Shown here: positions 2,011 through 18,430 of the stretch, in pieces
How positions within the stretch are numbered: position 1 is the first letter of the stretch
Layout: the number at the start of each line of letters is the position of its first letter
Virus record (IMG/VR): IMGVR_UViG_3300028394_000246
Location: 1-29,327 of that record
Reading direction: 5' to 3' (one strand)
DNA from: a virus
Length of the DNA stretch: 29,327 bases
Translations under genes and position numbers: made by a program
Notes under the pieces: generated by a model
Told to the model about the DNA's origin: nothing
Database searches by the model: none
The model's input: the letters and a program-made list of their open reading frames with translations, nothing else

Positions 2011-3441
2011 TTACTTTAGAGAGCCATATTGACTAAGTACACTATCGTCTGGATTAATCTGAGTACCTAAACTGCCAAATGGGTTGCCTTTGTTTTTGTC
2101 TTTATCAATAGCTGCCTGAATCTTATCGTCCTTGAGATTTTGGGTAACCAAGTCTCGGATAACTTGCCCTGCTCTCATCCTCTGTTCTGGTTTGTATCCT
2201 TCAAAGAATGCTAGCGTTTCTTTACCCTTAGGTCCTTTCATTGCAAACAAATTATCAATTGCCAGTTCAGCTGTACTAGACTTATATCCTGGATTTTGCC
2301 GCTTATGTTCAGCTGCGTACATTAGGGCCTTTGCGGCTAACTCCTGCGCCGTCTGAGCGTCAAGCTGATTCTGTGTAGGCCTGGGTTGATTACGCGCATA
2401 GCCATTCATTGAAGCAGCCATTAGCTGCGTTCGATCGTGGTGCTCCGCAATAATCACAGCTCTAGCAGATTCAAGAGCGGACAATTGAGCTTGATATGCC
2501 TGTTGATCTCTTAGATTATCAGCCCTACTCAGTGCCTCACTGGTCGAGCGAATGTTCGCCTCAATCGTTTGTAGCTTGCCAAGATTTACACCAATATCAG
2601 ATCTCTTGGACTCCATGGCCTTGCCGATCATATCGTCAGAGTCTTTTTGCTGCTGCCTTTGCATAGCGACCTGACCCATCATCGCTAGGTTTCTGAGTTT
2701 GTTTTGATTCTCTTTTGCTGCGTCGTATGATTGAGATCCAACGCCAATAGCCTGCGCCAATAGATTAGCCAGACCAACTTTGTTATCTCGATTAGAAGCC
2801 ATCGCTGCGCCAGCAGCAATCAAGGCATCGCCCAGACGAGGCTTCTTGCTTTCAGCCATCTGGGTTTGATAATCTACGAGCTTCTTCTCTGCGCTGTAAT
2901 CCCGTGGCCCATACGCAGACCTCATCTCATCAATGTATCCAGCGAGAGGCTTGTCTGGATATCGTTTAGCAATATCCTCATTAGACATTGCTAGTGAAGG
3001 AGGTGCTTGAGTAGGAGCCTTGGACGTTGGAGCCAGCGCCTTGATCTGATCGTTAAAGAATTTGAGAGTATCTGAATAGTTAGTAGTACCTGCCGCATAC
3101 CTAGGAACATACCCCCCACCTGCCATAGCCACAACCTGCTGTGGCGCTCCCTGCATGATCCCTTGAGCCTGAGGCTGCTGTGGCATCCCCTGTTGAGGCA
3201 TACCCTGCTGTGGCTGACCCTGTTGCTGCTGAGACTGTGCAAGGTTCTGCGCTGTCTGTTGTATCACAGTAGGAGGTTGCTGCTGTTGTTGTGACTTAGC
3301 AAACTCAGCTCTCATTTGCTCACGGCGCTTCATCTCAGCAAGGACCAAGTAAGGCGGTAGCATCACAGGGTTCTCGCCAGCAGAGAGTAGCTGCTGGTCT
3401 GAGAAGTTCTTGATATCGTCTGCTGCTTTTAATATATTCAT
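2011..3441 (-). CDS. Q-rich virion-core protein with GG motif
   Basis: 476 aa, starting 6 bases after the stop of the 1496-aa gene. Residues 1-50 contain NPVMLPPYLVLAEMKRREQM, a helical N-terminal module I recall as recurrent in podovirus-like phage proteins next to internal virion genes. Residues 50-103 are low-complexity, dominated by Gln with repeated GMPQQ units. Residues 104-118 carry MAGGGYVPRYAAG, an aromatic/GG motif shared with neighbouring virion proteins. Residues 200-470 are Ala/Gln/Lys-rich and helix-prone, with a hydrophobic patch near 205-235 (LGDALIAAGAAMASN). The gene sits between two very large virion-core genes, so an internal or ejection protein is likely by context. No enzyme motif was found. 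The upstream ribosome binding site is weak, which suggests reinitiation after the preceding gene. Confidence 0.8.
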   Translation of the reverse strand: MNILKAADDIKNFSDQQLLSAGENPVMLPPYLVLAEMKRREQMRAEFAKSQQQQQPPTVIQQTAQNLAQSQQQQGQPQQGMPQQGMPQQPQAQGIMQGAPQQVVAMAGGGYVPRYAAGTTNYSDTLKFFNDQIKALAPTSKAPTQAPPSLAMSNEDIAKRYPDKPLAGYIDEMRSAYGPRDYSAEKKLVDYQTQMAESKKPRLGDALIAAGAAMASNRDNKVGLANLLAQAIGVGSQSYDAAKENQNKLRNLAMMGQVAMQRQQQKDSDDMIGKAMESKRSDIGVNLGKLQTIEANIRSTSEALSRADNLRDQQAYQAQLSALESARAVIIAEHHDRTQLMAASMNGYARNQPRPTQNQLDAQTAQELAAKALMYAAEHKRQNPGYKSSTAELAIDNLFAMKGPKGKETLAFFEGYKPEQRMRAGQVIRDLVTQNLKDDKIQAAIDKDKNKGNPFGSLGTQINPDDSVLSQYGSLK

Positions 3442-3446
3442 CTTAC

Positions 3447-6400
3447 TTATGTTTTTTGGTTTGCGTAGTAGTTAGAAGCCAACCCAGCACCAGCAGTCAA
3501 CAGACCACTCAAGCCACCAGAAGCAGGTCGAGCGAACTGTACATTCTCTGTCTGCATACCAGTGGGTATACCAGACATAATACCTTGCAAGAAGTTCATC
3601 TGCTGATAAGGAGCGTTTTGCTGATTGATGAAGTCTTGATACTGAAGGTTCATCGCTTCTTGAGTACGAGCGTCAACGGCACCACCTGCCTGCTGCATGG
3701 CGGCAAGACGTTGAAGCTCAAGCTGTTGTGCCGCAGGATTGATGCTCATCATTTGACCACCCATCCCAGCTAGTGCGCCAGCAGATGCTGACCCCTGCTG
3801 AATTGCAGCCAACCTATTATTGAACTGGCGCTGTCTAGCCGCTTCCTGTTCTGCCGAAGCCTGCTTCGCAGCATCCAACTGCATCTGCGTCATTGATATG
3901 TCGCCGTACTGAGTAGCCTTAGCTGCCTCTAAACCAGACTGAACGCCAAGCTGTTGTGTGGCAAGAGAAGACTGTAGGTTAGCCTGACCAGCGGTAAGAC
4001 CTGCTTGCTGATTAGCAAGCTGTGCCTGTAGGGCTTGTTGAGCACCCTGTTGCTGAAGGCCCAAACGAGCGCCAAGATTCTCTCTGCCAGCGGTAAGGCC
4101 AGCCTGCTGGTTAGCAAGATCTGCCTGTAAGTTTTGTGCAGATTGAGAACGAAGGACATCCGCTCTGGTCCCGTACCCAGTGAGAGCAGCTTGTTGTGCC
4201 GATTGCTGATTAGCAAGAGCGGCCTGCAACGCTTGTTGAGCACCTAGTTGCTGAGTATTAAGGTTAGCGCCTAAGTTCTCTCTACCTGTAGCAAGTCCAG
4301 CTTGTTGATTTGCCAGAGATGCCTGAAGGTCTTGTGCAGATTGAGAGCGAAGAATATCAGCTCTCGTGCCATATCCAGTTAGAGCTGACTGTTGTTCTGC
4401 TTGTTGATTAGCGAGAGCGGCTTGTAATGCAGATTGATTACCTAGCTGTTGAGTGCTGAGTTGCGCTCCTAGATTCTCTCTTCCAGTGGCAAGTCCAGCT
4501 TGTTGATTGGCAAGTGCGGCTTGCAGGTCTTGTGCAGATTGAGAACGTAGAATGTCTGCCCTCGTTCCATATCCAGTAAGCGCAGCCTGCTGTGCTGATT
4601 GTTGATTAGCTAGAGCAGCCTGCAATGCAGTTTGAGCGCCAAGTTGTTGCGTGGAAAGGTTAGCACCAAGGTTCTCTCGACCAGCAGTGAGGCCAGATTG
4701 TTGATTAGCAAGAGCAGCCTGCAATGCAGATTGCACATTAGTCTGTTGAGAAGCAAGCGAAGCAGCACGATCACGATCAAACTGAGACTGAGCATTCTCA
4801 AATGCTCTCTGACGGCCAACCGTATCAATGTCACCTAGCTGGCGCTGTAACGCCTCTTCAGCCATTCCTTCCTGAATAGCCTGACGAGAACCACCGAATG
4901 CACCAGCACGAACAGCAGCAGCACCACGACCAGCCTTCTGCATTCCAGCAGTACGAGAAGCATCACGCTTCTGCATCTCAGTAACTGCATCCATATAAGG
5001 AGACATATACTGTTGTGCTTGCTGTTGTCCAAACTGATCTACCTGAGTTTGACCAGATCCCACTCTCTCAGGGCCTTGCATCTGAAACTGCTGTACTTGA
5101 GGAACACCTTGAACAGTTGCGCCAGATAGACCACCTAAAGTTGAAAGAATATCTCTCGTCTGACCAGTAACTCTCTCAGGCCCCTGCATTTGAAACTGCT
5201 GTACTTGAGGTACGCCTTGAACTTTCGAACTAGACAAACCACCTAAGGTAGAAAGAATATCTCTTGTCTGACCAGTGACTTTCTCTGGACCTTGCATCTG
5301 GAACTGCTGTAGTTGAGGGACTCCCTGAACTGTTGTTCCAGATAAACCACCTAACTGACCAAGAACGTCAATGTTCTGACCACTCACGCCCATAGGCTGT
5401 GCCATCTGGAAAGTACCCAACTGCTGTGGGGTCATCTGAGTGACCATATCCTGGGCAGCAGTTACGCCCATTGGATTAATCATGTTGGGCGCTTGGATAG
5501 GATTCACCTTAATGGCGTCCTTGAATCCCATCCCCTGAATCCCCGGCATGAGACTCATCAGGTAGCTTTGCTCTGGAGGAAGCCTAGATGCGCCGATTAG
5601 ATTAGAACCTTCTTCAGCAGCATTACCGGACAAATCAGTCGCAGAGTTAATGGCGCTAACTCCCTTGCTAAAGTCAGTTCCTTGACGGATCTGCCCATTA
5701 TTGTCGTATATACTCTGAAGCCCACCAACACCGGACAACGCATTCCTGGTTAGATTACTAGACGTATACCCAGTAGCCTCATTACCTTGTCCAAAGTCCT
5801 GTCCAAACAACATCGTCCGCTGTCCACCATACACAGGAGGCGCGTTGAATAGGTTCTGAACCTCACCTTCGACTTTTGGATTAGCAGTCTTGAACAGAGA
5901 AGCAGCGCCATTAGGACCACCAAATCCACCAGCAACAGGAGTTTGTGGCGCACCAAATCCACCCAAGCTAAACGGGGGAGTATAAGGAGGAGTGACAGCA
6001 GCAACAGGCCCACCCTCATCAAACCTACGGACAGACCCACCCTTACGATAGTTATTCACCCTGCCATCGTCGCCAATATCAAAACTAGCAAGAGATTGAT
6101 CCGACCCATAATCAGGGGTGTACGATTCAGGAGCAGATGCTTCAGGAGCATAGTACTCAGGCGTGTACGATTCAGGAGCGTAGGACTCAGGAGCAGATAC
6201 TTCAGGAGTATAAGACTCAGGAGTATAGGAGTCAGGGGTATACGCTTCTGGCGTATAGGACTCAGGAGTGTAAGAGTCAGGCGTATAAGATTCAGGAGTA
6301 TTCGACTCAGGAGTATTCGACTGATTTGAACCTAAGAGAGAAGCAATACCACCACCATCAGGCTCAGGCACAGATGTCTCTGGCGAGTACGTTTCAGGAT

Positions 6401-7937
6401 TGTATACTTCAGGCTCAGGAATATAAGACTCAGGTTCAGGATTATAAGGCTCAGGAATATAAGGCTCAGGTATATCAGGATCAGGATTAACTGGTGGAGG
6501 AACATCTGGCTCAGGGATACGATCATATATTACGTCAGGTAGAGTCGGAGCCAAACCGGGAACACCACTCCTTGGAAGTGGCGTAGTGCCACGATCAGGA
6601 GGCGGTTCAGTCGCAGGAGGAGTAGTTGTCGCAGGAGGCTTACTAGTCGCAGGAGGAGCAGTAGTTGCAGGAGGTTGCCCAACAGGAGACACTCTAGCGC
6701 CAGAAGCATAAGCCTGATTGTTCTGTTGAATCAATCTGTCGATTGAAGAAGTGTCGCCTCCAGAACCAGAAACCTCAGCTCTCAGTCGAGCTAGAGATGA
6801 AGTCATCTCACTAGGAGTCTGACCAGGACGAAGCTGCTGCTGGATTAACCCAGCATTGAAAGTGTCACTGCCACCAAAGCCAAGCTGATTCTGTGAGGGA
6901 ACATTAAGTGGACCAGATGTATTCGTACTCTGGTTAGTCCCACCAAGCAACGAGGCAAGTCCTCTAGCCTGATCGTCAGTAGCATACTGAAGTGGGTTAT
7001 ACCCACCAGCGCCTTGATTAGCAGTAGTGGTCCCAGCAAGACCACTAGAAACAATCTGAGCAAGATTACCAATACCACCTCCACCACCAGTGCCGACACC
7101 TGTACCAGGAGTTCCTGGCGGTCTAACGGGAGTTCCAGGAGTTCCTGGCGGTGTGCTAGGAGTAACTCTTCTATCTAAACTAGGATCGCGTGGGCCAGGA
7201 CCACCTGTCTGTGGACCACCGATTGTTCCAACGCCTCCACCACCTGGAGGAGTAGTAACACCAGTGCCAACCGGAGGAACAACCCCAGGAGCAATAACAG
7301 GACGAGGATTAAAGCGAGTTATGTCTGGGCTGATGTTATCTCCAATTGTGTAGCTAGAGGTTTGAGAAGGGCCTCTAGTGACATTAAAGGGATTCTTGAA
7401 CTCAGGATAGGTAACGCCACCGGTAAGACTTTTAGCATCAGCAGCAGGGATAGCAGCTTGCATCAAGCCAACGGGCATCTTCTCTCGAAGACCTTGATAC
7501 TCATCCAGGATCTTCTGGATAGGATCCTCTTTAGGATTCAGCTCACCGCCCTTAGCAGACTTAATCGTCTTGTACGCTTCTGGCACATAGGTGCGAGTAT
7601 TAGTATCCCAAACTAATCCAGGCAACTTAGGCATCTTGCCAGAAACCATATTCAACGCATTGAAGATGGCGTTCTTATTGCTCTCTTCATTACTAGCCGC
7701 ATCATTCCTCTCGTTGCCAGTTGTGCCAGTGTCTCCAGTATTGCCAGAAGTATTCTGCTGCTGGTTAGGCTGATTCTGAGTATACGCATTGAAGTAAGTG
7801 GCATTAGGCAAGAAGTTCTTCATTGCCTCTGGAGTGTATACACTGCTGAATGCAGAAGACAGTAGAGCGTTCCTGAATGGTCTAAGGTATTCGGGAATGT
7901 CCTGCGTCTGAAATGTTGAGCTAAGTGGATCTGCCAT
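3447..7937 (-). CDS. 1496-aa repeat-rich virion-core (internal/tape-measure-like) protein
   Basis: The largest complete gene in the window, with AGGA 8 bases before the ATG. Domain order: a short N-terminal module (IPEYLRPFRNALLSSAF, residues 14-30); a Pro/Gly/Thr-rich disordered region (about 190-480); a Pro/Glu region ending in fourteen tandem pentapeptides (541-610); two GG motifs (NYRKGG and RRFDEGG, about 630-645); three 36-aa repeats (844-951); a conserved block with YMSPYMDAVTEMQKRD and RAGAFGGSRQAIQEG (about 970-1030) that I recall from marine phage proteins; four 66-aa Ala/Gln repeats (about 1068-1331); and a C-terminal Gln-rich tail. It also contains GLASLLGG (about 326) and GIASLLGS (about 530), shared with the 391-aa protein. 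The long predicted coiled coil and the location suggest an internal virion protein or a structural equivalent of a tape measure. This is inference; no enzyme domain was recognised. Confidence 0.85.
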   Translation of the reverse strand: MADPLSSTFQTQDIPEYLRPFRNALLSSAFSSVYTPEAMKNFLPNATYFNAYTQNQPNQQQNTSGNTGDTGTTGNERNDAASNEESNKNAIFNALNMVSGKMPKLPGLVWDTNTRTYVPEAYKTIKSAKGGELNPKEDPIQKILDEYQGLREKMPVGLMQAAIPAADAKSLTGGVTYPEFKNPFNVTRGPSQTSSYTIGDNISPDITRFNPRPVIAPGVVPPVGTGVTTPPGGGGVGTIGGPQTGGPGPRDPSLDRRVTPSTPPGTPGTPVRPPGTPGTGVGTGGGGGIGNLAQIVSSGLAGTTTANQGAGGYNPLQYATDDQARGLASLLGGTNQSTNTSGPLNVPSQNQLGFGGSDTFNAGLIQQQLRPGQTPSEMTSSLARLRAEVSGSGGDTSSIDRLIQQNNQAYASGARVSPVGQPPATTAPPATSKPPATTTPPATEPPPDRGTTPLPRSGVPGLAPTLPDVIYDRIPEPDVPPPVNPDPDIPEPYIPEPYNPEPESYIPEPEVYNPETYSPETSVPEPDGGGIASLLGSNQSNTPESNTPESYTPDSYTPESYTPEAYTPDSYTPESYTPEVSAPESYAPESYTPEYYAPEASAPESYTPDYGSDQSLASFDIGDDGRVNNYRKGGSVRRFDEGGPVAAVTPPYTPPFSLGGFGAPQTPVAGGFGGPNGAASLFKTANPKVEGEVQNLFNAPPVYGGQRTMLFGQDFGQGNEATGYTSSNLTRNALSGVGGLQSIYDNNGQIRQGTDFSKGVSAINSATDLSGNAAEEGSNLIGASRLPPEQSYLMSLMPGIQGMGFKDAIKVNPIQAPNMINPMGVTAAQDMVTQMTPQQLGTFQMAQPMGVSGQNIDVLGQLGGLSGTTVQGVPQLQQFQMQGPEKVTGQTRDILSTLGGLSSSKVQGVPQVQQFQMQGPERVTGQTRDILSTLGGLSGATVQGVPQVQQFQMQGPERVGSGQTQVDQFGQQQAQQYMSPYMDAVTEMQKRDASRTAGMQKAGRGAAAVRAGAFGGSRQAIQEGMAEEALQRQLGDIDTVGRQRAFENAQSQFDRDRAASLASQQTNVQSALQAALANQQSGLTAGRENLGANLSTQQLGAQTALQAALANQQSAQQAALTGYGTRADILRSQSAQDLQAALANQQAGLATGRENLGAQLSTQQLGNQSALQAALANQQAEQQSALTGYGTRADILRSQSAQDLQASLANQQAGLATGRENLGANLNTQQLGAQQALQAALANQQSAQQAALTGYGTRADVLRSQSAQNLQADLANQQAGLTAGRENLGARLGLQQQGAQQALQAQLANQQAGLTAGQANLQSSLATQQLGVQSGLEAAKATQYGDISMTQMQLDAAKQASAEQEAARQRQFNNRLAAIQQGSASAGALAGMGGQMMSINPAAQQLELQRLAAMQQAGGAVDARTQEAMNLQYQDFINQQNAPYQQMNFLQGIMSGIPTGMQTENVQFARPASGGLSGLLTAGAGLASNYYANQKT
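3945..4736 (-). repeat. Four 198-bp (66-aa) tandem repeats, last copy diverged
   Basis: Copies begin at about 4736, 4538, 4340 and 4142 on the minus strand. The recurring forward-strand word gattgaga lies at 4141, 4339 and 4537, exactly 198 bases apart. The encoded unit begins SAQDLQAALANQQAGLATGR and ends ALTGYGTRADILRSQ. The unit divides into six blocks of eleven residues, several starting with Leu (LQAALANQQAG, LATGRENLGAQ and so on), which is the hendecad pattern of right-handed coiled coils. The copies differ at scattered bases, so they are not very recent. Confidence 0.9.
5085..5408 (-). repeat. Three 108-bp (36-aa) tandem repeats
   Basis: Units begin at 5408, 5300 and 5192, with a partial fourth from 5084. 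The core is TGQTRDILSTLGGLS followed by VQGVPQVQQFQMQGPE. The first unit is the most diverged (QNIDVLGQLGGLSGTTVQGV). The alternation of a short polar helix, LGGLS and a Gln-rich strand suggests a small repeated fold preceding the long Ala/Gln coiled coil of the 1496-aa protein. Confidence 0.9.
6108..6317 (-). repeat. Fourteen 15-bp (PES-Y-T pentapeptide) tandem repeats
   Basis: Residues 541-610 of the 1496-aa protein are fourteen uninterrupted pentads of the form Y-T/A-P-E/D-S/A. Less regular Pro-Glu repeats (YIPEPYNPEPESYIPEPE) precede them from about residue 470. The composition predicts an extended, acidic, proline-rich linker without fixed fold. Confidence 0.92.
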
Positions 7938-7945
7938 ATTAATTC

Positions 7946-9121
7946 CTAAGCGGGTAGAACCCGAACGTCTTTAACCTTTCCAGGTTGCTTCTTGTTGCCA
8001 GTCCTGTCCATGCGAACTCTGTCCATCATGGCGTACAGCTTTCTGGCACCTGACTCACTACTGCCATCACCCAAACCGCTTACGACATCAGCAGGGATAA
8101 TGAACTCATCGTTGGATAGAAGAACCTTCTGACCACCATGAGCCATACGAGCCGTAGCCATGTCGTCCATGCCATTGCCGGGGCCTTTAATCATCCCCTC
8201 AGGCGGTTCGTAGTTGTCTTCTTCTTCAACCTCTTCCTTGCCAGACATACGCTTGTACAAGTCTTTCAAAGCGTCTTTGCCGTAATAAGCAAGGTAGGTA
8301 TTGAGGGAACCCTCAGGGTCGTCTCCTACGCCACGAATCGCTTCCATGGCATCCTGCACGATCTGACGGGCCTTCTTTTCTTCAGGTTCAAGAGAACCAC
8401 CTTCGGCATAGCCAGACACATCTTCTTCTTCTTCCTCAGTAACGACAGGGGCTGAAGCAACGGAAGGTTGGAAGACAGAGGCTATCCCTTTCTGCTGTAC
8501 TGTCGCAGGCTGTGATTTAGGCGTAGCGCCCATTGCAAGAACAGAGCCTATCCCAGTAGGTTGTGCCGTAGTAGTGCTAGTGGATATAGGAGCAGGTTGC
8601 GCTGTTGCCGGTTGTGAGATCGTAGGTGCAGTATTTGCTGACCTCAATAGAGGAATTCTAATGTTCTTCTCTTGTTGCGCTAGGCTAGCTGCCTTGTATT
8701 TATCTAACTCAGTAAGGGCTTGCTGGCTTTCCTTCTTTTGATCTGGCTTAAATGCACTAACAGCAGTTGCCGCTGTACCAGAAATAAGGGCTGGTATAGC
8801 TATACCCTTAAGCGCAGCCATGCCAGTCGTGCCAACAGCATGAACTAAACCAGGGGCAGCGGCAGCACCAAGGCCACCAGTGAAAAAGATCAATCCAGCA
8901 GCAGCAGCACCAAGTCCAATCGCAGCTAGAGTCTTCTTCCAACTCCACGCCTCATACATCCCAGTCTCAGGATTAAGAGTGATCTCGATATTAGGATCAA
9001 CTTTATGCAGAACCTTACGCATCCCCTCTAATTCACTGGGATGAATATGTAAAAGGGTGGAATCCCCACCCCTGCCTTTAGAAGCAACCTGTCTAGCGAG
9101 AGATGCAATACCTTTACTCAT
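7946..9121 (-). CDS. Membrane-segment virion-core protein with GG motifs and EFIIPADVVS module
   Basis: 391 aa. Its ATG overlaps the stop of the preceding 98-aa gene (ATGA at 9121-9118). Residues 20-58 hold GGDSTLLHIHPSELEGMRKV and NPETGMYEAW, a pattern I recall from phage structural proteins. Residues 64-123 contain two Ala/Gly-rich hydrophobic segments that could cross or enter a membrane. Residues 160-230 are a Pro/Thr/Ala/Gln linker with GIGSVLAMG and GIASVFQPS. GYAEGG (238-242) and ARMAHGG (324-330) are GG motifs. Residues 330-370 form a conserved C-terminal module (LLSNDEFIIPADVVSGLGDG, then GARKLYAMMDRVR) that I recall as recurring in marine phage virion proteins. Hydrophobic segments and neighbours suggest a protein ejected into or through the host membrane; this is not proven by the sequence. 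Confidence 0.85.
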   Translation of the reverse strand: MSKGIASLARQVASKGRGGDSTLLHIHPSELEGMRKVLHKVDPNIEITLNPETGMYEAWSWKKTLAAIGLGAAAAGLIFFTGGLGAAAAPGLVHAVGTTGMAALKGIAIPALISGTAATAVSAFKPDQKKESQQALTELDKYKAASLAQQEKNIRIPLLRSANTAPTISQPATAQPAPISTSTTTAQPTGIGSVLAMGATPKSQPATVQQKGIASVFQPSVASAPVVTEEEEEDVSGYAEGGSLEPEEKKARQIVQDAMEAIRGVGDDPEGSLNTYLAYYGKDALKDLYKRMSGKEEVEEEDNYEPPEGMIKGPGNGMDDMATARMAHGGQKVLLSNDEFIIPADVVSGLGDGSSESGARKLYAMMDRVRMDRTGNKKQPGKVKDVRVLPA

Positions 9122-9414
9122 GTAGTAACCGTTACAGTACCTAGTTTAATCTTGATTTTATTACTTGGCGCAAATACTTGGTCTGGTAGTACAACTCTTA
9201 GCACACCACTTCCATCTGCCCAAGTCATGCCATCACGCAAGCCATACCCACTGCTAGGGCATTGCAGCAGCATTAGAGAACTTCCAACAAGTTCACCAGG
9301 AACACGTTGATTGAATATATGAATGCCGATATTACGAACCAACGAGTCAAAGTACAATTGATTGTACTCAGCAGGTGGCTTAGGAAGATTCTGTATTGGG
9401 GTATTACGGTTCAT
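9118..9414 (-). CDS. Small conserved phage structural-module protein
   Basis: 98 aa, coupled to both neighbours by ATGA overlaps at 9414 and 9121. The N-terminal NLPKPPAEYNQLYFDSLVRN is followed by a helix and a beta-rich half (SSLMLLQCPSSGYGLRDG, then VFAPSNKIKIKLGTVTV). The combination of an LPxPPxEY start and a predicted beta C-terminus is, from memory, a recurrent unknown family placed after nozzle-like genes in uncultured aquatic phages. It may be a small tail or interface protein. No function can be assigned from motifs. Confidence 0.85.
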   Translation of the reverse strand: MNRNTPIQNLPKPPAEYNQLYFDSLVRNIGIHIFNQRVPGELVGSSLMLLQCPSSGYGLRDGMTWADGSGVLRVVLPDQVFAPSNKIKIKLGTVTVTT

Positions 9415-11321
9415 CGCATACCATCCGGTTGGATCTGGATTCGATTAGAACCAAGACGCCACTTGTACACAGGATCTCCACCTTGGAACGACTCAACCTT
9501 CAATGCAAGCTGACGTGATCGAATCCTAAGGTTGTTCTGTGTAGTAATAGGCGCTTCGCCTTGAACCAATACAGTGTTTGTCTGATACCCAGCCTGACTC
9601 ATGGGATAGTTCACACCAGAGACATGAACATTGACCTTCTTGATAATCCCAGTAGAGCTAACCCTAGGGTCAGTCACGAACTGAACGTCAGGGATGATTC
9701 GACTAACGAAGGAGAACTGCTCCCCGTCTTCAATATCAATTGCGCCAGAAGTCACATAGGCTTCAATGTTAGATCCATCTGCCGTATAGCCATACTCGTG
9801 CTGATATAGATACGTCTCAGTATTAGAGGTTTCCAGATCAGCCCCTTCTGGCATAGCACCAATTGGGAATCCACCAGTAGCTAGATCCAACCAAGCCGTG
9901 CGCTCCATTGTGCCAATCGTCCACAGGTCTTCAACGTAGTTGTAGGCCACGTACCTGCTGTTCTCTCCGGTGTCGTCGGTAACGCTTGGGTACCACCAGT
10001 AAATCTCATTGAACTGAGCATTCACCCCGGCACATACCTTTGTCTTCTGATCCCAATTCAAATCAGAGAACACATAGCTCAAGACCGTACAGTTCATCTT
10101 TACTACGTTGCCGTTGTATTGATAGAAGTTGTTGTTGTCCATCCAGTACACTGTGCCTCTAGCATCTACTCCAGCATTAGGCCCAATGATCGACACAGAC
10201 TCGCCAATACGAGTAAAGCTAAAGGTGTAAGGAGGCCCAGTGTAGGCCATCGCAAACAGAGACTTATCCGTGAACACAAGTATCTGCTGCTGCGTAGGTA
10301 TTGCGGCTACAATCTCAGACCCGCTCGATATGGTAAACCCACCAGCGGTATTGTCTGTTCTTGGTTCCCAGTCTAAAAGGTCTTCCTGAGAAGACCAACG
10401 GACAAGCAATAAGTTCTGCGAGGAAGATCCTATTTCATTACAACCAAAAGCAATAACGTGCCTATCGTTATCAGAGACTAATATCTCAGACGCAACCGTA
10501 GGAACACCATTTGCTCCACTCACAGAAGACAACGTGACAGCCCTAGTATTAGTAGGATCAAGCCCAGAAGCCGACCAATAATAGATATTGCCATACCTAA
10601 TATTGATTAGTAGGTCTTGCCCATAGTTAGAGTTCGACCATATCCTGAGATTATCTGTAGGGCTAAGAGGAGAGAACGAACTCCCCCAAGGGCCTCTTCC
10701 CCAAGGACCAGAACCCCATCCAGTAGCGTACACCTGACTATTCAGTCCAACATTCAATTGAAAAGCAGCGCTTATAGAAGCACCACCACCAGAGGTAGAC
10801 GCCGTAACCGTTGCGCCAGAAGGGAATACCACATAGAAACTTGTAGCATCAATCACTTCTGTGACTTGAACCTCTACGTTCAACTGAGCAGTAGTGAAGC
10901 CATCAAATCCAACGGCACCAGAGAAGGTAACCCAGTCGCACTGAAGTGCATCGTGACCAGATGGCGTCGTAACCTTCATCTGACCAGTGCCTATTACTTG
11001 CGTCTGAAAAGGATTGTTGCCTAACGCAATCGTAGTGCGAATAGGGGTGATGTCGTTAATGAACTGACCGGACTCAATGTAATACTTTTGATTTGTCCCT
11101 ATCCCAATGAATCGTTCAAGGGATAGGGAGGTCCACTGAATCAACGCCCTGCAAGTTCCATAAATGGTTTCAGCATCAGCGTAAGCCTGCCAACCACCAA
11201 TCACTTCAGGGTATCCAAGTCGAAACCTGATCTTGTCAGAGTCGTACCATAACCCTTCAGCAGAGTACTCTGTTACGTCCTTAACAATCCCAGGCTTGAA
11301 TTGGAGTTTAACTAATGGCAT
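9411..11321 (-). CDS. Large tail nozzle/gp10-like structural protein
   Basis: 636 aa, starting inside the last codons of the preceding 73-aa gene (14-base overlap) and ending in an ATGA overlap with the next. The N-terminus MPLVKLQFKPGIVKDVTEYS followed by WYDSDKIRFRLGYPEVIGGW is typical of a large beta-rich structural family common in marine podovirus-like phages. The body has many repeated beta strands and Trp/Tyr motifs (FIGIGTNQKYYIE, GRGPWGSSFSPLSPTDNL, GTVYWMDNNNFYQYNG), compatible with a beta-propeller. Proteins of this type correspond in role to the tail hub/nozzle of T7 gp12 or the P22 gp10 stabilisation protein. The nozzle role is inferred from size, fold impression and position with adaptor genes. 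An alternative is another tail-associated beta-propeller. Confidence 0.85.
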   Translation of the reverse strand: MPLVKLQFKPGIVKDVTEYSAEGLWYDSDKIRFRLGYPEVIGGWQAYADAETIYGTCRALIQWTSLSLERFIGIGTNQKYYIESGQFINDITPIRTTIALGNNPFQTQVIGTGQMKVTTPSGHDALQCDWVTFSGAVGFDGFTTAQLNVEVQVTEVIDATSFYVVFPSGATVTASTSGGGASISAAFQLNVGLNSQVYATGWGSGPWGRGPWGSSFSPLSPTDNLRIWSNSNYGQDLLINIRYGNIYYWSASGLDPTNTRAVTLSSVSGANGVPTVASEILVSDNDRHVIAFGCNEIGSSSQNLLLVRWSSQEDLLDWEPRTDNTAGGFTISSGSEIVAAIPTQQQILVFTDKSLFAMAYTGPPYTFSFTRIGESVSIIGPNAGVDARGTVYWMDNNNFYQYNGNVVKMNCTVLSYVFSDLNWDQKTKVCAGVNAQFNEIYWWYPSVTDDTGENSRYVAYNYVEDLWTIGTMERTAWLDLATGGFPIGAMPEGADLETSNTETYLYQHEYGYTADGSNIEAYVTSGAIDIEDGEQFSFVSRIIPDVQFVTDPRVSSTGIIKKVNVHVSGVNYPMSQAGYQTNTVLVQGEAPITTQNNLRIRSRQLALKVESFQGGDPVYKWRLGSNRIQIQPDGMR

Positions 11322-11529: not shown

Positions 11530-11546
11530 ACTCTACTATCTTACTG

Positions 11547-11867: not shown

Positions 11868-11907
11868 ATCAGAAAAGATCCTTTAACTTACACACTGTGA
11901 AAGTTGG

Positions 11908-12234
11908 TTAGTTCCAAGGAGGAGGAAGTGAAGTGGTGGGAGGATTCTTTTGATTTTCAATCTGTTGCGCCAGAGAAAGATCATAAGCATCAACCTGATC
12001 CTGACTGAGTACACTCACTACCCAACCTTGAACTTGATCTTTAGTCAACTCAAAGTAAGGAGTAAAGTCGCTAGGAGCAGGAGGCCCTAAGGATACCTGA
12101 CCGTAGCAAGACGCACTGTACTGACCGTCAACGGCAGTACGCCGCCAATCAACAGTGATAACAACGTCTGTAAGAGAACCCTCTGCGGGTTTTACCGTCA
12201 AAGGGTTGAAGATCCAATCGTAAGTAATTGCCAT
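11908..12234 (-). CDS. Small protein following the tail fibre, DUF7936-like
   Basis: 108 aa. The ribosome binding site (AAGGA, 7 bases before ATG) lies inside the last codons of the tail-fibre gene. MAITYDWIFNPLTVKPAEGS, then DVVITVDWRRTAVDGQYSASCYG, gives an immunoglobulin-like beta start; the second half is helical (LTKDQVQGWVVSVL) with a Pro-rich tail. From memory this resembles the DUF7936 family found next to tail-fibre genes in many phages, possibly a fibre-associated protein or assembly helper. The name is tentative. Confidence 0.75.
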   Translation of the reverse strand: MAITYDWIFNPLTVKPAEGSLTDVVITVDWRRTAVDGQYSASCYGQVSLGPPAPSDFTPYFELTKDQVQGWVVSVLSQDQVDAYDLSLAQQIENQKNPPTTSLPPPWN

Positions 12235-12235
12235 A

Positions 12236-15200
12236 TTAGTTCCTTGCCTTAAGAAGGTTAATCTCAGTTGTCAAACTTTCTACTTGCAGCATCAGAGCCT
12301 GCACTGCGCCATACAATGCCGCGATCATCTGCCCACCGTTCAGATCAAGGCAGTCTTCAATCACGTCATGTCGAACTTTATTGCGCGTCTTCGTGACCAT
12401 GCGTGGCATTTGATAGGTCAATGGCTTGTCGCCATCCATCACTGCAACGCCAGCTTCGTCCACTACATCAACGCTATCGAATAGCAGAACCTTGTTCTCA
12501 GACGTAACGACTTTCGATACCTGAACAGGCTTACCGTCGATGACCTGAATGCTTGTCTCTGTCTTCTCTACTGTTTCCAGCTTAAAGTCTTGCTCGGTGT
12601 ATTCTTCAGTGCCGTCAGGGATCTCAGTGTTAAGAGTGAAAGGCTTAACAGATACTGCCTTTGAGAAGACCTTCTGCACGTCTTGAGCAATCCAGCCCAA
12701 GCTATGCTTGTCGTTGATCTGATCGTCAGTGTAGACACCAGGAGCAAAGCCAAAGTGTTTCAGCGGGACTGATTTAACAATCTCGTAGCAACGATCAAGG
12801 TCAGCAGGAGTGATGTCAGTCTTGATGCGCTCGTCTGAAACAACTGTCCATAATCCGCCTACGCCTGGTTTGCCTGCGGAATCGGTAGATATTTCAAGTT
12901 TGTACGCAGGACTCGCCGTCCCGATGCCCACGTTGCCAGTAGAAGCGATTCGCATCACCTCATTGTCGGCGTTACCCGTCGTTCGCACTTTGAAGGCAAG
13001 ATAACCAGCCTGATCGCCGGAGGTGCCGTTTTCCTTACGACCGTGTATGGAGGAAAAATAGCTGCTATTAGTGCTGGCGGTCGTATTGCGCCCGTAGAAT
13101 CCAATGGACCCGCCTATGTTAGCGGCCATAGCATCATTGGATTCGACCACAAGCATACCAGCATAACCACCAGCGGTCGGCCCAGTAAATACAGCCGGAC
13201 CTAGCGAATCAGCGGTCGTGTTGGCCGTGCCACTCTGCAACACGGAAAGCGTTGCACGTGGCGCCGTCGTCCCGATGCCCACGTTATTGCCATTTGGATT
13301 TAGAGACAATGGCAACCACGCTCCACCGGTCCCAGTTCTGACCGCTTGCACGTATCCAACTAATAGCGTTGGGTCATATCCAACATTGAGGAATTCCGGG
13401 CTTGTTGCATTAGTCGCGGTTCCGTATATCTTTAGTCCAGCGTTTCCAGGATTGTTTGTTGCGGATTGAGCTGTGTCGACAATGGTTAACTTTGATGTGG
13501 GTACGGTCGTCCCGATGCCCACGTTGCCGGAGGAGTCGATACGCATTCTTTCGGCGATAGGTGCACCGTTTGCACGAGTACCAAATGCCAAATAGGTTGC
13601 GTAGTTACCATCCGTAGCATTTTCTTTTGCGCCCTTGATGATGGCAAATTGACCAAAGGTTGTTCCGGTGTATCTACCGCCCATCCCAATCGTGGCTCCA
13701 ACGTCTGCGCCCAGAGTGGAGTTGGAATGCACGTTCAAATTTGCAGCATTACCGCCAATTCCAAAAGCATAATTTGGACCCACCACAGTGGCTCCCACGT
13801 CAATGGTGTCGCCTCCGGTGTTGAGAGTTCCACTGTCCAACACTGTAAATATGTTAGGCGGGGCAGACGTATTGATACCTACTCTTCCATTGCTTAAAAT
13901 CCGCATCCTCTCAGACTGCGATGCAGTCTTAAAGATAATGGCATCTGACGTACCAGCCCCGCTGGTCGATTGTAATGTCAGCGTAGACGATACCGCAGTG
14001 CCGCCGTTGACTAATGGGATCACAGCGCTGGTAGTGATCGTAGGCGTGGCAATGGTAGGCGAGGTGGCAAATACATTTGCACCTGTACCTGTCTCGTCAG
14101 TCAATGCAGCCGCTAGATTCGCAGACGAAGGCGTAGCCAAGAATGTCGCTACGCTAGTACCTAATCCACTCACTCCAGTAGATATAGGGAGGCCCGTGCA
14201 GTTCGTCAGAACGCCAGAAGAAGGCGTACCAATATCAGATGTAGTAAGAGATGCACTTACTAAAACTGGACCAGTAGCAAACACCAACGCCCCAGTCCCA
14301 GTTTCTCCTGTGACAGCAGCCGCAAGATTAGCTGAACTAGGTGTAGCGAGGAATGTAGCTACTCCAGTTCCAAGACCATTTACTCCAGTAGAGACTGGTA
14401 AGCCAGTACAGTTAGTCAGAGTGCCAGAGGTAGGGGTGCCTAATAGTGGAGTGGCTAAGGTCGGGCTGGTAGCAAATACCAAAGCTCCACTACCCGTCTC
14501 ATCCGTTACGGCAGATGCTAAGTTGGCACTAGAAGGGGTAGCAAGGAATGTCGCTACCCCAGTTCCAAGACCACTCACTCCAGTAGAGACAGGCAGGCCA
14601 GTGCAATTCGTCAACGTACCAGAAGTAGGAGTTCCTAAAAGAGGAGTTACCAGAGTAGGGCTAGTGGCAAATACATTGGATCCTGTCCCCGTTTCATCTG
14701 TCAAAGCAGAAGCAAGGTTAGCCGAAGAAGGGGTAGCAAGGAATGTCGCTACCCCACTGCCAAGCCCAGATACCCCGGTAGAGATAGGTAGACCAGTGCA
14801 GCTTGTCAGTGTACCTGACGTTGGAGTCCCAATAGCAGGAGTGACCAGAGTAGGCGACGTTGCCAGCACAACAGATCCAGTGCCTGTTACGGCACTAACC
14901 TGAGTCCCATTAATACGAAGGACATTACCTGTGCCAGCAGTATCCAGAGTCTTGTTCGTGAACGTATCAGTAGTCGCTTTACCAACAAGAGTATCTGTAG
15001 CGGCAGGCATCGTAAGCGTACCAGAGGCAGTAGCTGTTGCCTGTAAGGTCGTCGAGCCTGAGGTGGATCCAACAAAGACCACACCAGTAGACTCAAGTAA
15101 TGCAGTCAGCTTCAGGCTAGTAAGCACCTCTTTAGCAGATGCACTACCACCAGCGCCATCAAGATAAACAACAGAAGAGTACCCAGGCTTGATCGTTACA

Positions 15201-15535
15201 GTAGAACCAGACCCCTGATAGATGATTATGTTCTGCGAACCAGTCGTGTTGTTCTGTACGAAGTAATGTTTCTTGACAGTGTTAGGCGTGACACTAATAG
15301 TGTTCGTAGCAGAGAGTGTGCCAGTAAACGACAAGACCTTATTACGCCCATCTGCTGCTGATCCATCAGGGATGTTCAACGTGTGCGTTGTGCCAGTAAT
15401 TGCAACGGCAACGAATCCATCTATCGCCGTGTCGAACAAATCAAAGTTGGTATTGGTAGTGCTTCCCCAAGTACCGGACTGTTCTCCAGTTGCAATCTTC
15501 TGAATCTTATTATTTGAAGTATATGTAGAAGGCAT
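12236..15535 (-). CDS. Tail fibre with C-terminal peptidase S74 intramolecular chaperone
   Basis: 1099 aa, starting at a TAATG junction with the preceding gene. No ribosome binding site is visible before the start, so translation probably depends on coupling. Residues 10-40 (KIATGEQSGTWGSTTNTNFD) form a conserved fibre N-terminus, probably for attachment to the tail. Residues 236-500 hold four 65-aa repeats. Residues about 550-890 are Gly-rich with four V/I-G-I-x-T motifs (VGINTSAP, VGIGTTVP, VGIGTTAP, VGIGTASP), typical of trimeric beta fibres. The final 200 residues are an S74 self-cleaving chaperone: SDERIK at 900-905 keeps the known Ser/Lys dyad (S900, K905), and GWIAQDVQKVF (48 residues on) is the second family hallmark. 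In this family the chaperone trimerises the fibre and cuts itself off. The receptor target is not visible. Confidence 0.93.
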   Translation of the reverse strand: MPSTYTSNNKIQKIATGEQSGTWGSTTNTNFDLFDTAIDGFVAVAITGTTHTLNIPDGSAADGRNKVLSFTGTLSATNTISVTPNTVKKHYFVQNNTTGSQNIIIYQGSGSTVTIKPGYSSVVYLDGAGGSASAKEVLTSLKLTALLESTGVVFVGSTSGSTTLQATATASGTLTMPAATDTLVGKATTDTFTNKTLDTAGTGNVLRINGTQVSAVTGTGSVVLATSPTLVTPAIGTPTSGTLTSCTGLPISTGVSGLGSGVATFLATPSSANLASALTDETGTGSNVFATSPTLVTPLLGTPTSGTLTNCTGLPVSTGVSGLGTGVATFLATPSSANLASAVTDETGSGALVFATSPTLATPLLGTPTSGTLTNCTGLPVSTGVNGLGTGVATFLATPSSANLAAAVTGETGTGALVFATGPVLVSASLTTSDIGTPSSGVLTNCTGLPISTGVSGLGTSVATFLATPSSANLAAALTDETGTGANVFATSPTIATPTITTSAVIPLVNGGTAVSSTLTLQSTSGAGTSDAIIFKTASQSERMRILSNGRVGINTSAPPNIFTVLDSGTLNTGGDTIDVGATVVGPNYAFGIGGNAANLNVHSNSTLGADVGATIGMGGRYTGTTFGQFAIIKGAKENATDGNYATYLAFGTRANGAPIAERMRIDSSGNVGIGTTVPTSKLTIVDTAQSATNNPGNAGLKIYGTATNATSPEFLNVGYDPTLLVGYVQAVRTGTGGAWLPLSLNPNGNNVGIGTTAPRATLSVLQSGTANTTADSLGPAVFTGPTAGGYAGMLVVESNDAMAANIGGSIGFYGRNTTASTNSSYFSSIHGRKENGTSGDQAGYLAFKVRTTGNADNEVMRIASTGNVGIGTASPAYKLEISTDSAGKPGVGGLWTVVSDERIKTDITPADLDRCYEIVKSVPLKHFGFAPGVYTDDQINDKHSLGWIAQDVQKVFSKAVSVKPFTLNTEIPDGTEEYTEQDFKLETVEKTETSIQVIDGKPVQVSKVVTSENKVLLFDSVDVVDEAGVAVMDGDKPLTYQMPRMVTKTRNKVRHDVIEDCLDLNGGQMIAALYGAVQALMLQVESLTTEINLLKARN
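12239..12838 (-). other. S74 chaperone domain, predicted to be released by cleavage before Ser900
   Basis: This codes for residues 900-1099 of the tail fibre. The dyad S900/K905 in SDERIK agrees with the Ser-Lys pair of endosialidase-type intramolecular chaperones. An insertion of about 70 residues (from about 963, TLNTEIPDGTEEY, to about 1045, PLTYQMPRMV) lies between the hallmark GWIAQDV and the terminal helix (GGQMIAALYGAVQALMLQ). Cleavage itself is inferred from the family. Confidence 0.8.
14036..14830 (-). repeat. Four 195-bp (65-aa) tandem repeats in the tail fibre
   Basis: Units begin at 14830, 14635, 14440 and 14230. The fourth is displaced by 15 bases (five extra residues, TTSDI). 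Each reads GTPTSGTLTNCTGLPVSTGV, then SGLGTGVATFLATPSSANLA and a D/G-ETGTG block. The repetition produces a long antisense open frame at 13788-14903, which is an artefact. Repeats of this kind lengthen the fibre shaft. Confidence 0.92.
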
Positions 15536-15966
15536 TAATTGGTCACAGAGCTAATGACGGCAATGGCGTTGTTCACATCAGCAGTTGGGAATTGAATAGT
15601 CAGAGTGCCAGCAGTGACAGTCTTGTTCGTCCCAAAGTCCAGGACAAATATCGACTTGTTAGATTTCGACGAGTTGTATACCAACGCACCACGACAGGTA
15701 AACGTAGCAGCAGTCCAGCTAGTGTCTGCAAAATCCAGCACAGCATAGTTCCCTATCTGAGTAACAGTAGGCGCAAGAGTGTTACCTCCAGCAGTGTATC
15801 CAGTGCCAGAGACTTCGTTGGTGGCGCTATACACAGTAGTAGAGTTGTCGATAGTGGCGCTGCTCGTGTACAGTGCAACCTTGATTACATCAGTAGTAAA
15901 GTCGTGAACCGCAAGGAACAACTGATTCTCGAATGAGTTTGTTACAGAACTTCCAGTAAAGGCCAT
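15535..15966 (-). CDS. Small beta-rich structural protein
   Basis: 143 aa, joined to both neighbours by TAATG junctions (15966 and 15535). It begins with a short helix (NSFENQLFLAVHDF), followed by strands (VIKVALYTSSATIDNST, TVYSATNEVSGTGYTAGG, TFTCRGALVYNSSKSNKSI). From memory this is a very common family in aquatic phage structural modules, usually just upstream of fibre or adaptor genes. It may be a virion-surface or fibre-attachment protein. No specific role can be assigned. Confidence 0.87.
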   Translation of the reverse strand: MAFTGSSVTNSFENQLFLAVHDFTTDVIKVALYTSSATIDNSTTVYSATNEVSGTGYTAGGNTLAPTVTQIGNYAVLDFADTSWTAATFTCRGALVYNSSKSNKSIFVLDFGTNKTVTAGTLTIQFPTADVNNAIAVISSVTN

Positions 15967-16622
15967 TATCCAACGTTCCTCTTGATGTCAGTATTGCGGT
16001 AGTTATCCATGTGCTGATCGCCCTCAGAAAATTTCTTGAGTTCAATCATGCCAAGCTGATATAGCTTCTCGTACTGCTGTTGCATCTGTGGCTCTCCCTT
16101 CAAGAACGAATAAGCCTCAACCAGACAACCATACAACAGTGTTTGCGGGAAGTATGTGCTCAACCAAGTAGTATTATTGCTAGCCCCAACAATACTGATC
16201 GGGGTTCTCGAATAATACAAAGTATAAGCGTATGACTGATTTGCCGATGGAGCAATAAGCAGAATAGTAGAAGCGTTGCTGGAAGATTGAATCGCATAAT
16301 ACGCAGGCGCTCCAGTCAATCCAACAGAGGCAGAAGTAACACTATACGCCTCAGTAAGATAAGAAGGGTCTTTAAGAAGCAAGCCAGTCTGAATACCTGA
16401 TATATTTACGAACAAGCTCAAGGTCGTTTCAAAATCACTAGGAGTTGTGATCGTTTGAGTTGTTACGGTTCCAGTAGCAGTAGCTCTGGAGTCAGGAGAC
16501 TTTACGTCACTATTAATACGAAATTCAGCTAGCTCAATAATCCCGTCCAGATTAGAAAGAAAGGTTGTTTCATTTGACTGGACGTAATCTTGTATTTGCT
16601 GTTTAAGTTCAGCGTATGTCAT
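15966..16622 (-). CDS. Phage adaptor protein, SU10-like
   Basis: 218 aa. The start MTYAELKQQIQDYVQSNETT, then IIELAEFRINSDVKSPDSR, matches my memory of the SU10 adaptor family (a ring protein below the portal in short-tailed phages). The middle is beta-rich (TTPSDFETTLSLFV, APAYYAIQSSS, AYTLYYSRTP). The C-terminal helix has LLYGCLVEAYSFLKGEPQM followed by YEKLYQLGMIELKKF. The gene is TAATG-coupled to the 143-aa gene. The 230-aa protein encoded at 18749-19441 has a similar overall plan. Confidence 0.85.
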   Translation of the reverse strand: MTYAELKQQIQDYVQSNETTFLSNLDGIIELAEFRINSDVKSPDSRATATGTVTTQTITTPSDFETTLSLFVNISGIQTGLLLKDPSYLTEAYSVTSASVGLTGAPAYYAIQSSSNASTILLIAPSANQSYAYTLYYSRTPISIVGASNNTTWLSTYFPQTLLYGCLVEAYSFLKGEPQMQQQYEKLYQLGMIELKKFSEGDQHMDNYRNTDIKRNVG

Positions 16623-16648
16623 AATGGCTTGCTCTCAAGTGTAGCTGA

Positions 16649-18430
16649 TTAATTCATTACTCCGGTAGAACGAATTTTCTTCGCAATACCGTAGCCCTTA
16701 CACATACCGCCGCTAGCATACTTGGCGGTCCCACCCTTAGCAAACTTCTGATCCATGCTCGAAGTCTTAGGCTTCGCCATGTCAATCTTCTTGGAACCTG
16801 GAACCATCTTTTTAATCAAAGCCATATCCATAGCCATGTCTTCGTGCTTAGACATACCTCCAGCGGCTTTGCCCTTTTTGCCCATCATGTCCATCATGCC
16901 CTTAGACATTTCACCACCCTTCTTATACTTCTTGCCCATCATAGCCATCATTTCTTTAGGCATACCCTTAGGCATGTTGCCGCCCTTCTTGTACTGAGGG
17001 ACGAGATTTTCTTTCATTGTGTTCATAGAACCTCCTTTAAATTTGCGAACAGTGCCGCCTACCATTTTCTTTGAAGTTTTATCCCCAGAAACTTTTACGC
17101 TAGGGTTGATTTGCCGCGCTTGTCTTGCCTTGAATGATGGACTATCATATGGCACTCCCCCGGTCCCGCGATATTTTTTATCATAAATTTCAGATACAAT
17201 TGGACGTTCATATTCTTTTGAATCGAACATTTTGTATTCATCAAGAAGACCTCCTTTGGCTGGCATCCTATTCTTCGCATTGTACATCTCATCAATAATT
17301 GAAGCCAAAGCCGCCTTCATATCCTTATCATTCGTTTCTTCTTTTGAATCAGAAAACGGGCGATAGCGGGTATCTTCTTCTTTGAGCAATTTTTCAGATA
17401 TACTATCTTTGCGTAATGGGGTCGCTGTCCCTAATGCAGCAAAACCAGCTCCATACTGAGGCGTTAGCCGATTAAACGCACTTTCACGTTTATCAGACTT
17501 ACTCTCTCCTCCCTCAGCAAACTTCTTAGTTACTTTCTTCATAACCCCACCACTAAACTTACGAATAGCACCGCCTGCCATTTTCTTCTTAGGATGAGCA
17601 GCGGATTTGTTTCCCAATAAACCACCATGTGCGACGTTGAGAGTATCAACAGGGGGAACAACAGGAGTGCCAGAAGGAGCGCCAGGAGTCTTCTTCCCGC
17701 GATTCTGAAGCATCTTAAGGATCCCAGGAAGCGCTGCCATAATAGGAGCAGCAATCGCTCCACCCTTACCACCAAACCCAGATAACGCACCAAGAGCAAT
17801 GAACTTGCCGTACTCGTCCATGAACTTCTTCATCCCAGATTTAGTCTTAGGAAGTTCGCCAGCAGCCTTTGCCATATCAGGTGCCGCAGAAGATTTGGTG
17901 CTTTGCGTAATAGACTTGACGATATCAGGGATAGTAGGAGTTGTCGGTTTCCCGTAAGCTGACATCGCATTTGTTAAGTCAGCAGGAGAGTTATCCATCC
18001 CTTGCAAAAACTCTGAATTTGAATTCGTTACGGATTTCGAGATATCAGCAGGAGACACATTCGCTACTGGAGCAACGGGGTTTTTCTTGCTAGGAATAGG
18101 TGGCTTTGAGGGTTTAGTTGGAGCAACAGCAGAAACAGGTTTAGCTATTAACGATGGAGAATTATTCTGAGCAGTTTTATTCTCTTTATCCATCTTCTGT
18201 TGCAATAACTTCACAGCAGCTTGAGGGTCGTATTCAGCACCAATACCTAAAGGCATAGACGATTGCCCAGAATCCCCCAATGCTTTGGTTATTTGTTGGC
18301 CTGGAGTAAACAAGTCTTTAATAAACTGGGGAACTTCCTCTGGCTTAGAGTAAGGATCTGCTCCCTTTGCTCCTGGCTGATTAAACCCCCCATCATATTT
18401 TCTGATTACTTTATCTTTAAACTTGGGCAT
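16649..18430 (-). CDS. Lys/Met-rich GG-motif repeat protein
   Basis: 593 aa from the ATG at 18430, chosen over an upstream in-frame start (18469) because AAGGA lies 7 bases before it and the upstream start would overlap the previous gene. At least eight copies of an aromatic-x(1,2)-GG motif occur: IRKYDGG (N-terminal), then RKFSGG, KKFAEGG, RKFKGG, PQYKKGG, KKYKKGG, QKFAKGG and AKYASGG. The C-terminal 150 residues are extremely Lys/Met/Gly-rich (MPKEMMAMMGKKYKKGG, MMDMMGKKGKAAGG). Residues about 60-290 are Pro/Ser/Lys linkers with a small hydrophobic block (LGALSGFGGKGGAIAAPIMA). The protein is strongly basic. I do not recognise a characterised family. By context it is virion-associated, perhaps a DNA- or membrane-contacting internal protein. 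Confidence 0.8.
   Translation of the reverse strand: MPKFKDKVIRKYDGGFNQPGAKGADPYSKPEEVPQFIKDLFTPGQQITKALGDSGQSSMPLGIGAEYDPQAAVKLLQQKMDKENKTAQNNSPSLIAKPVSAVAPTKPSKPPIPSKKNPVAPVANVSPADISKSVTNSNSEFLQGMDNSPADLTNAMSAYGKPTTPTIPDIVKSITQSTKSSAAPDMAKAAGELPKTKSGMKKFMDEYGKFIALGALSGFGGKGGAIAAPIMAALPGILKMLQNRGKKTPGAPSGTPVVPPVDTLNVAHGGLLGNKSAAHPKKKMAGGAIRKFSGGVMKKVTKKFAEGGESKSDKRESAFNRLTPQYGAGFAALGTATPLRKDSISEKLLKEEDTRYRPFSDSKEETNDKDMKAALASIIDEMYNAKNRMPAKGGLLDEYKMFDSKEYERPIVSEIYDKKYRGTGGVPYDSPSFKARQARQINPSVKVSGDKTSKKMVGGTVRKFKGGSMNTMKENLVPQYKKGGNMPKGMPKEMMAMMGKKYKKGGEMSKGMMDMMGKKGKAAGGMSKHEDMAMDMALIKKMVPGSKKIDMAKPKTSSMDQKFAKGGTAKYASGGMCKGYGIAKKIRSTGVMN

Follow-up and report, generated by a model that had tools for sequence, protein, structure and literature searches.

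How tailed phages choose the ejection proteins and polyvalent proteins that are packaged into their virions is the question raised by a short glycine motif in the late genes of a virus. The window, i.e., the whole stretch of DNA that was analysed, comprises positions 1 to 29,327 of IMG/VR record IMGVR_UViG_3300028394_000246, a 29.3-kb record that carries on its minus strand the late genes of a freshwater-type phage of the short-tail type. An original prediction had pointed to the motif [FY]-x(1,2)-GG in four otherwise unrelated proteins, here called M, B, C and D, and had proposed that it is a contact site for a common partner, a processing site or a co-packaging tag. We find that the motif marks proteins that are known or predicted to be delivered by the virion, and we tentatively favour, with slightly less than even confidence, the view that it is a docking peptide in protein linkers, which holds the delivered proteins on the portal-tail axis.

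The strongest evidence comes from the distribution of the motif over gene classes. In ten relatives of 48-61 kb, with classes defined after a first genome-wide tally, 21 motifs lie in large proteins encoded beside the portal (1.8 expected), 16 in M-like proteins (1.8 expected) and 38 in the ejection module (14.5 expected), while all 564 other genes together hold 20, below the 25.3 expected. A comparison with shuffled sequences across related genomes had been proposed together with the original prediction, and its outcome is an excess in the classes known or predicted to be delivered. An apparent enrichment in the rest of the genome in the first tally was due to the portal-side proteins, the M family and conserved folded sites, and was gone after the classes had been split. 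A further 80 portal loci yielded 53 upstream neighbours of up to 2048 amino acids (aa), which contain 137 motifs compared to 16.1 expected, a count that includes 13 FTGGGPASGKS sites, which are probably a nucleotide-binding loop and not the motif. The portal-side sites fall into 19 clusters that are unjoined by homology. Since enrichment is confined to these classes, the motif marks proteins known or predicted to be virion-delivered; the motif, its conservation, its class specificity and the hook homology described below are visible in the sequences themselves.

Several of the portal-side proteins carry Zeta_toxin, PcfJ-like, DUF6973 or SLT (transglycosylase) domains, or a weak ART-PolyVal match below the cut-off. 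Such a domain makeup is typical of polyvalent proteins, for which packaging and injection have been predicted (Iyer et al. 2017, PMC5512222); the relatives' proteins resemble them in their polyvalent-type domains and are dense in motifs. Polyvalent proteins are defined by at least two disparate domains, and single recognised domains were seen in the portal-side proteins of 800-2000 aa in the relatives. These proteins are candidate virion-delivered effectors. Genes of this size with many FAxGG motifs include L302:8175-12689, L312:787-5829, L327:2153-6988 and L348:3-6146, among others. The portal of the window is without such a large neighbour, and M is without a domain.

Across classes, the general consensus is [FYM]-A-x-G-G-x-[VAI]-x-[RK], with [KED] following the Ala in a fuller form. 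Most classes share the preference for Ala after the aromatic residue and for Val or Ala two residues past the GG. A basic residue before the aromatic one, which the original prediction had included in the motif, is a feature of M and not of the general form. Tandem copies, 8-9 residues apart, are common (MAGGAIRKFSGG, FAKGGTAKYASGG, YRKGGSVRRFDEGG, MAQGGHVARYADGG): this bipartite pattern occurs 114 times in 1802 unique proteins compared to 23.9 expected and a maximum of 38 over 100 shuffles, although this and related counts are inflated by homologues. No prior description of the motif was found in the literature searched, which does not prove that there is none; the text searched of PMC5512222 makes no mention of a glycine motif.

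Within the window, all strings of the original prediction are present in the proteins. Each protein was compared with 1000 composition-preserving shuffles of itself, and M has 8 motifs compared to 0.79 expected (P<0.001). D has 3 compared to 0.28 (P 0.004), but two of these belong to one FFTGG segment at 79-84, which lies inside a hydrophobic helix and is probably unrelated to the motif. The count for C (3 compared to 2.04) is not significant, although the form with a preceding basic residue occurs twice compared to 0.23 expected (P 0.023). B lacks the aromatic form, its sole copy being the Met-type MAGGGYVPRYAAG at residue 106. Counting alone therefore supports the motif in M only, and for C, D and B the case is made by the conserved sites and the further protein classes. 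A BLAST comparison of A, B, C, D and M with one another gave low-complexity Gln/Ala/Gly matches, and the match between M and C lies at the motif. Single folded sites in the terminase (RFRQGG), capsid (SYTGG), protein K (GYTAGG) and portal (MPAGGPV) were excluded.

Conservation in homologues, as read from the alignments, holds for several sites in M, C, D and B, but not for several copies in M. In an alignment of 15 M sequences, FKGG, YKKGG, FAKGG and YASGG are invariant, compared to a mean column conservation of 0.38, while the remaining copies, including several of the eight originally listed, are unconserved. Searches with M and with its last 32 residues (tblastn) gave no match in 50,697 phage records. 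Small basic M-like proteins of distant phages have the same motif together with a C-terminal signature such as CKGMGKAVRGG (CKGMGKA.RGG) or ADGIAKKGKTRG. In relatives, C keeps YRKGGAIRK or a close form, D keeps [YFM]AEGGxLEPEE (AQGG once) and B keeps MAxGGxVxRYAxG. A short linear motif in otherwise unrelated virion-associated proteins, as originally suggested, thus withstands the shuffles, the comparison of orthologues and the wider searches.

The ejection module was further compared with 80 loci gathered starting from the cultured relative DSL-LC04, in which genes were numbered from the counterpart of D (gene 0). The block order F-E-D-C-B-A is conserved, with F, D, C and B matching genes -3, 0, +1 and +2. 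In hhalign comparisons, the whole of F aligns with gene -3 with probability 100, the C-terminus of D matches gene 0 with 99.1, and the C-terminal part of C matches gene +1 with 99.0 over 279 columns; the match of A to gene +3 is weak. B matches gene +2 with probability 95.3 over 19 columns, which are the motif itself, so that nothing else in B is detectably common to the two groups. Motif counts in the DSL-LC04-type loci exceed expectation in genes 0 and +2, and fall short of it in genes -3, -2 and +1. Gene -1 gave a strong signal, which was set aside as a different folded motif, since it consists of a single conserved site, YPxGGAT; in locus L107, for example, this gene encodes a 110-aa protein with the conserved Y-P-x-G-G-A-T at residue 51.

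The C-terminus of D links the motif to tape measure proteins. A C-terminal module of 65 residues aligns with the hook of siphophage tape measures (JBD30 gp46, Douge gp16, lambda gpH) and fits the hook sequence GPGTxTSDSIPAxLSxGEFVxxAxAVxxxG, whose columns are conserved in the relatives' alignment. With tblastn, D itself gave few phage records, some annotated as tape measure, at weak significance (E 0.08-0.2), while the equivalent segment of DSL-LC04 matched 519 phage records; among the matches listed, these are mostly annotated as tape measure and belong to phages of Gordonia, Mycobacterium, Pseudomonas and Vibrio. Against solved virions, a hook profile found the tape measures of Douge and JBD30 (8zdo, E 1e-25; 8rk3, E 1e-16); lambda was not significant. 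In JBD30, the matched stretch (residues 1018-1068) coincides with residues 1022-1066, which were predicted to fold into two helices and a short hairpin that together make a hook (PMC11445458). This hook is predicted to hold the tape measure in the baseplate once the C-terminus is released, as in T5 (PMC11445458; PMC10038345). Pfam has no family for the module. An AlphaFold2 (AF2) model of the D hook has a hairpin (45-51) and helices (55-61 and 66-85), with a local predicted local distance difference test (pLDDT) score of 74-80 and a mean of 58; a fold search with it gave no significant match in the PDB and only uncharacterised viral proteins near E 1e-3. The model of whole D (confidence 44) was unusable.

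In prophage tape measures, FAxGGxV flanks the hook. In 57 of 80, the form [FY]AxGGxV lies precisely 8 residues ahead of the hook, a count partly favoured by the query used; a second copy downstream, FA[AED]GGLV, is present in 55 of 80 (5.8 expected) and is free of that bias. In D, by contrast, YAEGG lies about 70 residues upstream, and the hook has an insertion, ARMAHGGQKV. Whole D does not qualify as a tape measure, which would have a length fitting a long tail and lie beside tail-tube, hub and distal tail genes: it is a 391-aa protein in a short-tail-type cluster, the genes around it encode SU10-type adaptors and a nozzle-like protein, and no tail-tube gene was recognised within the window.

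What the enriched classes most simply have in common is that they reside on the portal-tail axis and leave with the DNA, which favours the docking reading. The motif would lie in flexible linkers of tape measures, podophage ejection proteins and large polyvalent proteins, and each copy would dock its carrier on the axis until ejection, possibly by strand addition to a hub, portal or nozzle protein. In D and the tape measures, it would act beside the C-terminal hook, the predicted anchor of the chain at the tail end. M, Lys-rich and with 8-10 copies, would be the multivalent member; it may be a further virion-delivered protein or a multivalent partner, which is the least certain part of the proposal. 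The co-packaging tag and the common partner of the original prediction are compatible with these classes. A broader version, in which [FYM]AxGGxV is a portable delivery tag across tailed phages, appears rather unlikely; here structurally unrelated proteins (tape measures, ejection proteins, polyvalent effectors and small basic proteins) would all be loaded at a single conserved receptor surface on the portal-tail axis and delivered with the DNA.

Several observations weigh against docking. The ejection proteins of T7, P22 and HTVC010P function without the motif, which occurs there at chance level only. Each orthologue keeps its own variant (YRKGG in C, YAEGGSLEPEE in D, MxxGGxV in B), which one identical docking site would not call for. 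In D, the motif is not directly ahead of the hook; AF2 modelled both the hook (58) and whole D (44) at low confidence, with no significant fold match. In tape measures, the query partly favoured the upstream count. Structural density of tape measures covers the last 30-45 residues, and no structure shows the motif bound. Moreover, homologues are not independent, and shuffles leave their kinship uncorrected. M is encoded outside the ejection cluster, and its place in the virion is deduced.

Glycine pairs within low-complexity linkers would also favour flexibility, and aromatic-x-x-Gly-Gly could serve as a mechanical hinge that lets proteins unfold and thread through a narrow channel without a specific partner; the classes would all share passage through the tail channel. 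This appears unlikely, since a plain hinge needs neither the Ala after the aromatic residue nor the Val after the GG, which are invariant in several places. Moreover, the motif is the sole segment that B shares with its distant counterpart, and the T7 and P22 ejection proteins lack it.

Processing by a phage or host protease, which would cut at or near the GG between domains and thereby free parts of the proteins, is more doubtful. The location of motifs in inter-domain linkers of large proteins would suit it, metallopeptidases have been proposed to process polyvalent proteins (PMC5512222), and in T5 the tape measure is cleaved close to its C-terminus; in lambda, the matched region (gpH 751-790) contains GYATGG, and the exact cleavage residue of gpH was not found in the literature searched. 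However, the T5 cut was mapped after R1127 (PMC10038345), and the JBD30 site, a prediction only, is at an Arg past the hook (PMC11445458). The fixed distance of the motif from the hook and the two invariant copies within 31 residues at the end of M also speak against cleavage, and scanning the window proteins revealed no recognisable protease. The processing site of the original prediction is thus weakly disfavoured.

A contact on the host side after ejection is similarly doubtful: the motif would, for example, bind a component of the host membrane or periplasm, or make the ejected proteins adhere to one another in a channel. While the motif is common to ejected classes from differing virion architectures and the basic, aromatic copies of M could contact membranes or nucleic acid, acidic contexts such as YAEGGSLEPEEEKA are unsuited to membrane or DNA contact, and the hosts span Actinobacteria to Proteobacteria. 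That the motif is a functionless by-product of Gly-rich composition and shared descent is very unlikely: near-chance counts of the loose motif in C and matches within glycine repeats (L101) or folded sites (terminase, capsid) agree with it, but composition-preserving shuffles, site conservation and the lack of excess in other genes do not.

Known systems resemble the window in part. As with T7 gp14, gp15 and gp16, the block follows a nozzle-like gene and encodes long repeat-rich proteins, with hydrophobic segments in D and A; no sequence match of the window ejection proteins to T7 or P22 counterparts was found. SU10 has 16 motifs compared to 7.9 expected, and its ejection proteins lack the consensus form. 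Puniceispirillum phage HMO-2011 differs in capsid type and gene order; its gp25 has the tandem MAKGGMIRKMQTGG ahead of Gln/Asn-rich repeats, as in C, and its gp49 has a hook-like segment between FDEGG and MQVGG. In T4, capsid targeting sequences are short tags for internal head proteins; these tags sit at the N-terminus and are cleaved off by the prohead protease. Unlike these, the motif copies in the window are internal, multiple and also C-terminal.

Table 1. Positions of the motif-bearing proteins, their motif copies and related features in the window.
Feature	Position	Strand	Remark
M, 593 aa, Lys-rich, net charge +47, motif-dense	16649..18430	-	no Pfam/PHROG family
YDGG, M 12-15 (KYDGG)	18386..18397	-	aromatic varies in alignment
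MAGG, M 284-287 (KKMAGG)	17570..17581	-	unconserved in alignment; similar strings in L002, L087
FSGG, M 292-295 (KFSGG)	17546..17557	-	unconserved in alignment
FAEGG, M 304-308 (KFAEGG)	17507..17521	-	
MVGG, M 456-459 (KKMVGG)	17054..17065	-	GG invariant
FKGG, M 464-467 (KFKGG)	17030..17041	-	invariant, 15 M-family sequences
YKKGG, M 480-484 (QYKKGG)	16979..16993	-	aromatic and GG invariant
YKKGG, M 502-506 (KYKKGG)	16913..16927	-	close relatives only
FAKGG, M 563-567 (KFAKGG)	16730..16744	-	invariant; opens tandem FAKGGTAKYASGG
YASGG, M 571-575 (KYASGG)	16706..16720	-	invariant; YAGGG in two relatives
M C-terminal signature GGMCKGYGIAKK.R.TG	16652..16711	-	
D, 391 aa, two hydrophobic segments, tape-measure-type C-terminal hook	7946..9121	-	
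YAEGG, D 238-242 (GYAEGG)	8396..8410	-	GG invariant
MAHGG, D 326-330 (RMAHGG), in hook-module insertion	8132..8146	-	invariant
Hook module, D 312-376: KGPGNGMDD...LLSNDEFIIPADVVSGLGDGSS...	7994..8188	-	
C, 1496 aa, ejection-module protein, ANQQ-type repeats	3447..7937	-	
Tandem YRKGGSVRRFDEGG, C 630-643 (NYRKGG 630, RRFDEGG 639)	6009..6050	-	
FSLGG, C 656-660	5958..5972	-	conserved in part
B, 476 aa, ejection-module protein	2011..3441	-	
MAGGGYVPRYAAG, B 106-118	3088..3126	-	
A, further ejection-module protein, N-terminal 664 aa, cut by window end	3..1994	-	phrog_2206 weak
F, nozzle/stabilisation-like, ahead of ejection module, no enriched motif	9411..11321	-	phrog_3287; hhalign probability 100
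SU10-type adaptor L	15966-16622		
SU10-type adaptor O	18749-19441		

The late gene set (terminase, PF17289; an 857-aa portal; GroES; a Phage_capsid_4 capsid; an S74 tail fibre) suggests a short-tail morphology (Table 1). Pfam, PHROGs and NCBIfam yielded no useful match to M, B, C or D, whose position and relatives point to virion proteins. A, which has one hydrophobic segment, weakly matches the N4-type virion RNA polymerase (phrog_2206, E 7e-7); a delivered protein of very large size may begin with this sequence. C contains Pro-Glu-Ser-Tyr-Thr tandem repeats at window positions 6137-6500 (PESYTPDSYTPES), with ANQQ-type repeats beyond, like HMO-2011 gp25. A family outlier among its homologues (L101:3322-8004) has a long Gly-Phe/Met-rich repeat (FGGGFGGGYGGG), which inflates the motif count for this one homologue.

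The GroES-like co-chaperonin is encoded at 24401-24736, with the portal and capsid genes on either side, and is kept in relatives and in Planktothrix phage Pra-JY27. Mimicry of the GroES mobile loop, i.e., GG followed by hydrophobic residues in a phage that encodes GroES, was rejected, as no evidence beyond the resemblance was found. An unusual run of small basic genes extends from capsid to adaptor: a 131-aa basic protein at 19441-19836 is a DUF5872 member (E 5e-6), and the products of 19836-20039 and 20466-20804 are likewise very basic (net +14 and +16).

For proteins such as M, B, C and D, about which PHROGs and Pfam say nothing, a motif of this kind would allow virion-delivered proteins to be predicted in unannotated phages. 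If tape measures, podophage ejection proteins and effector-like portal-side proteins do have such a mark in common, it would, moreover, make the choice of proteins for packaging testable by mutation of a single motif.

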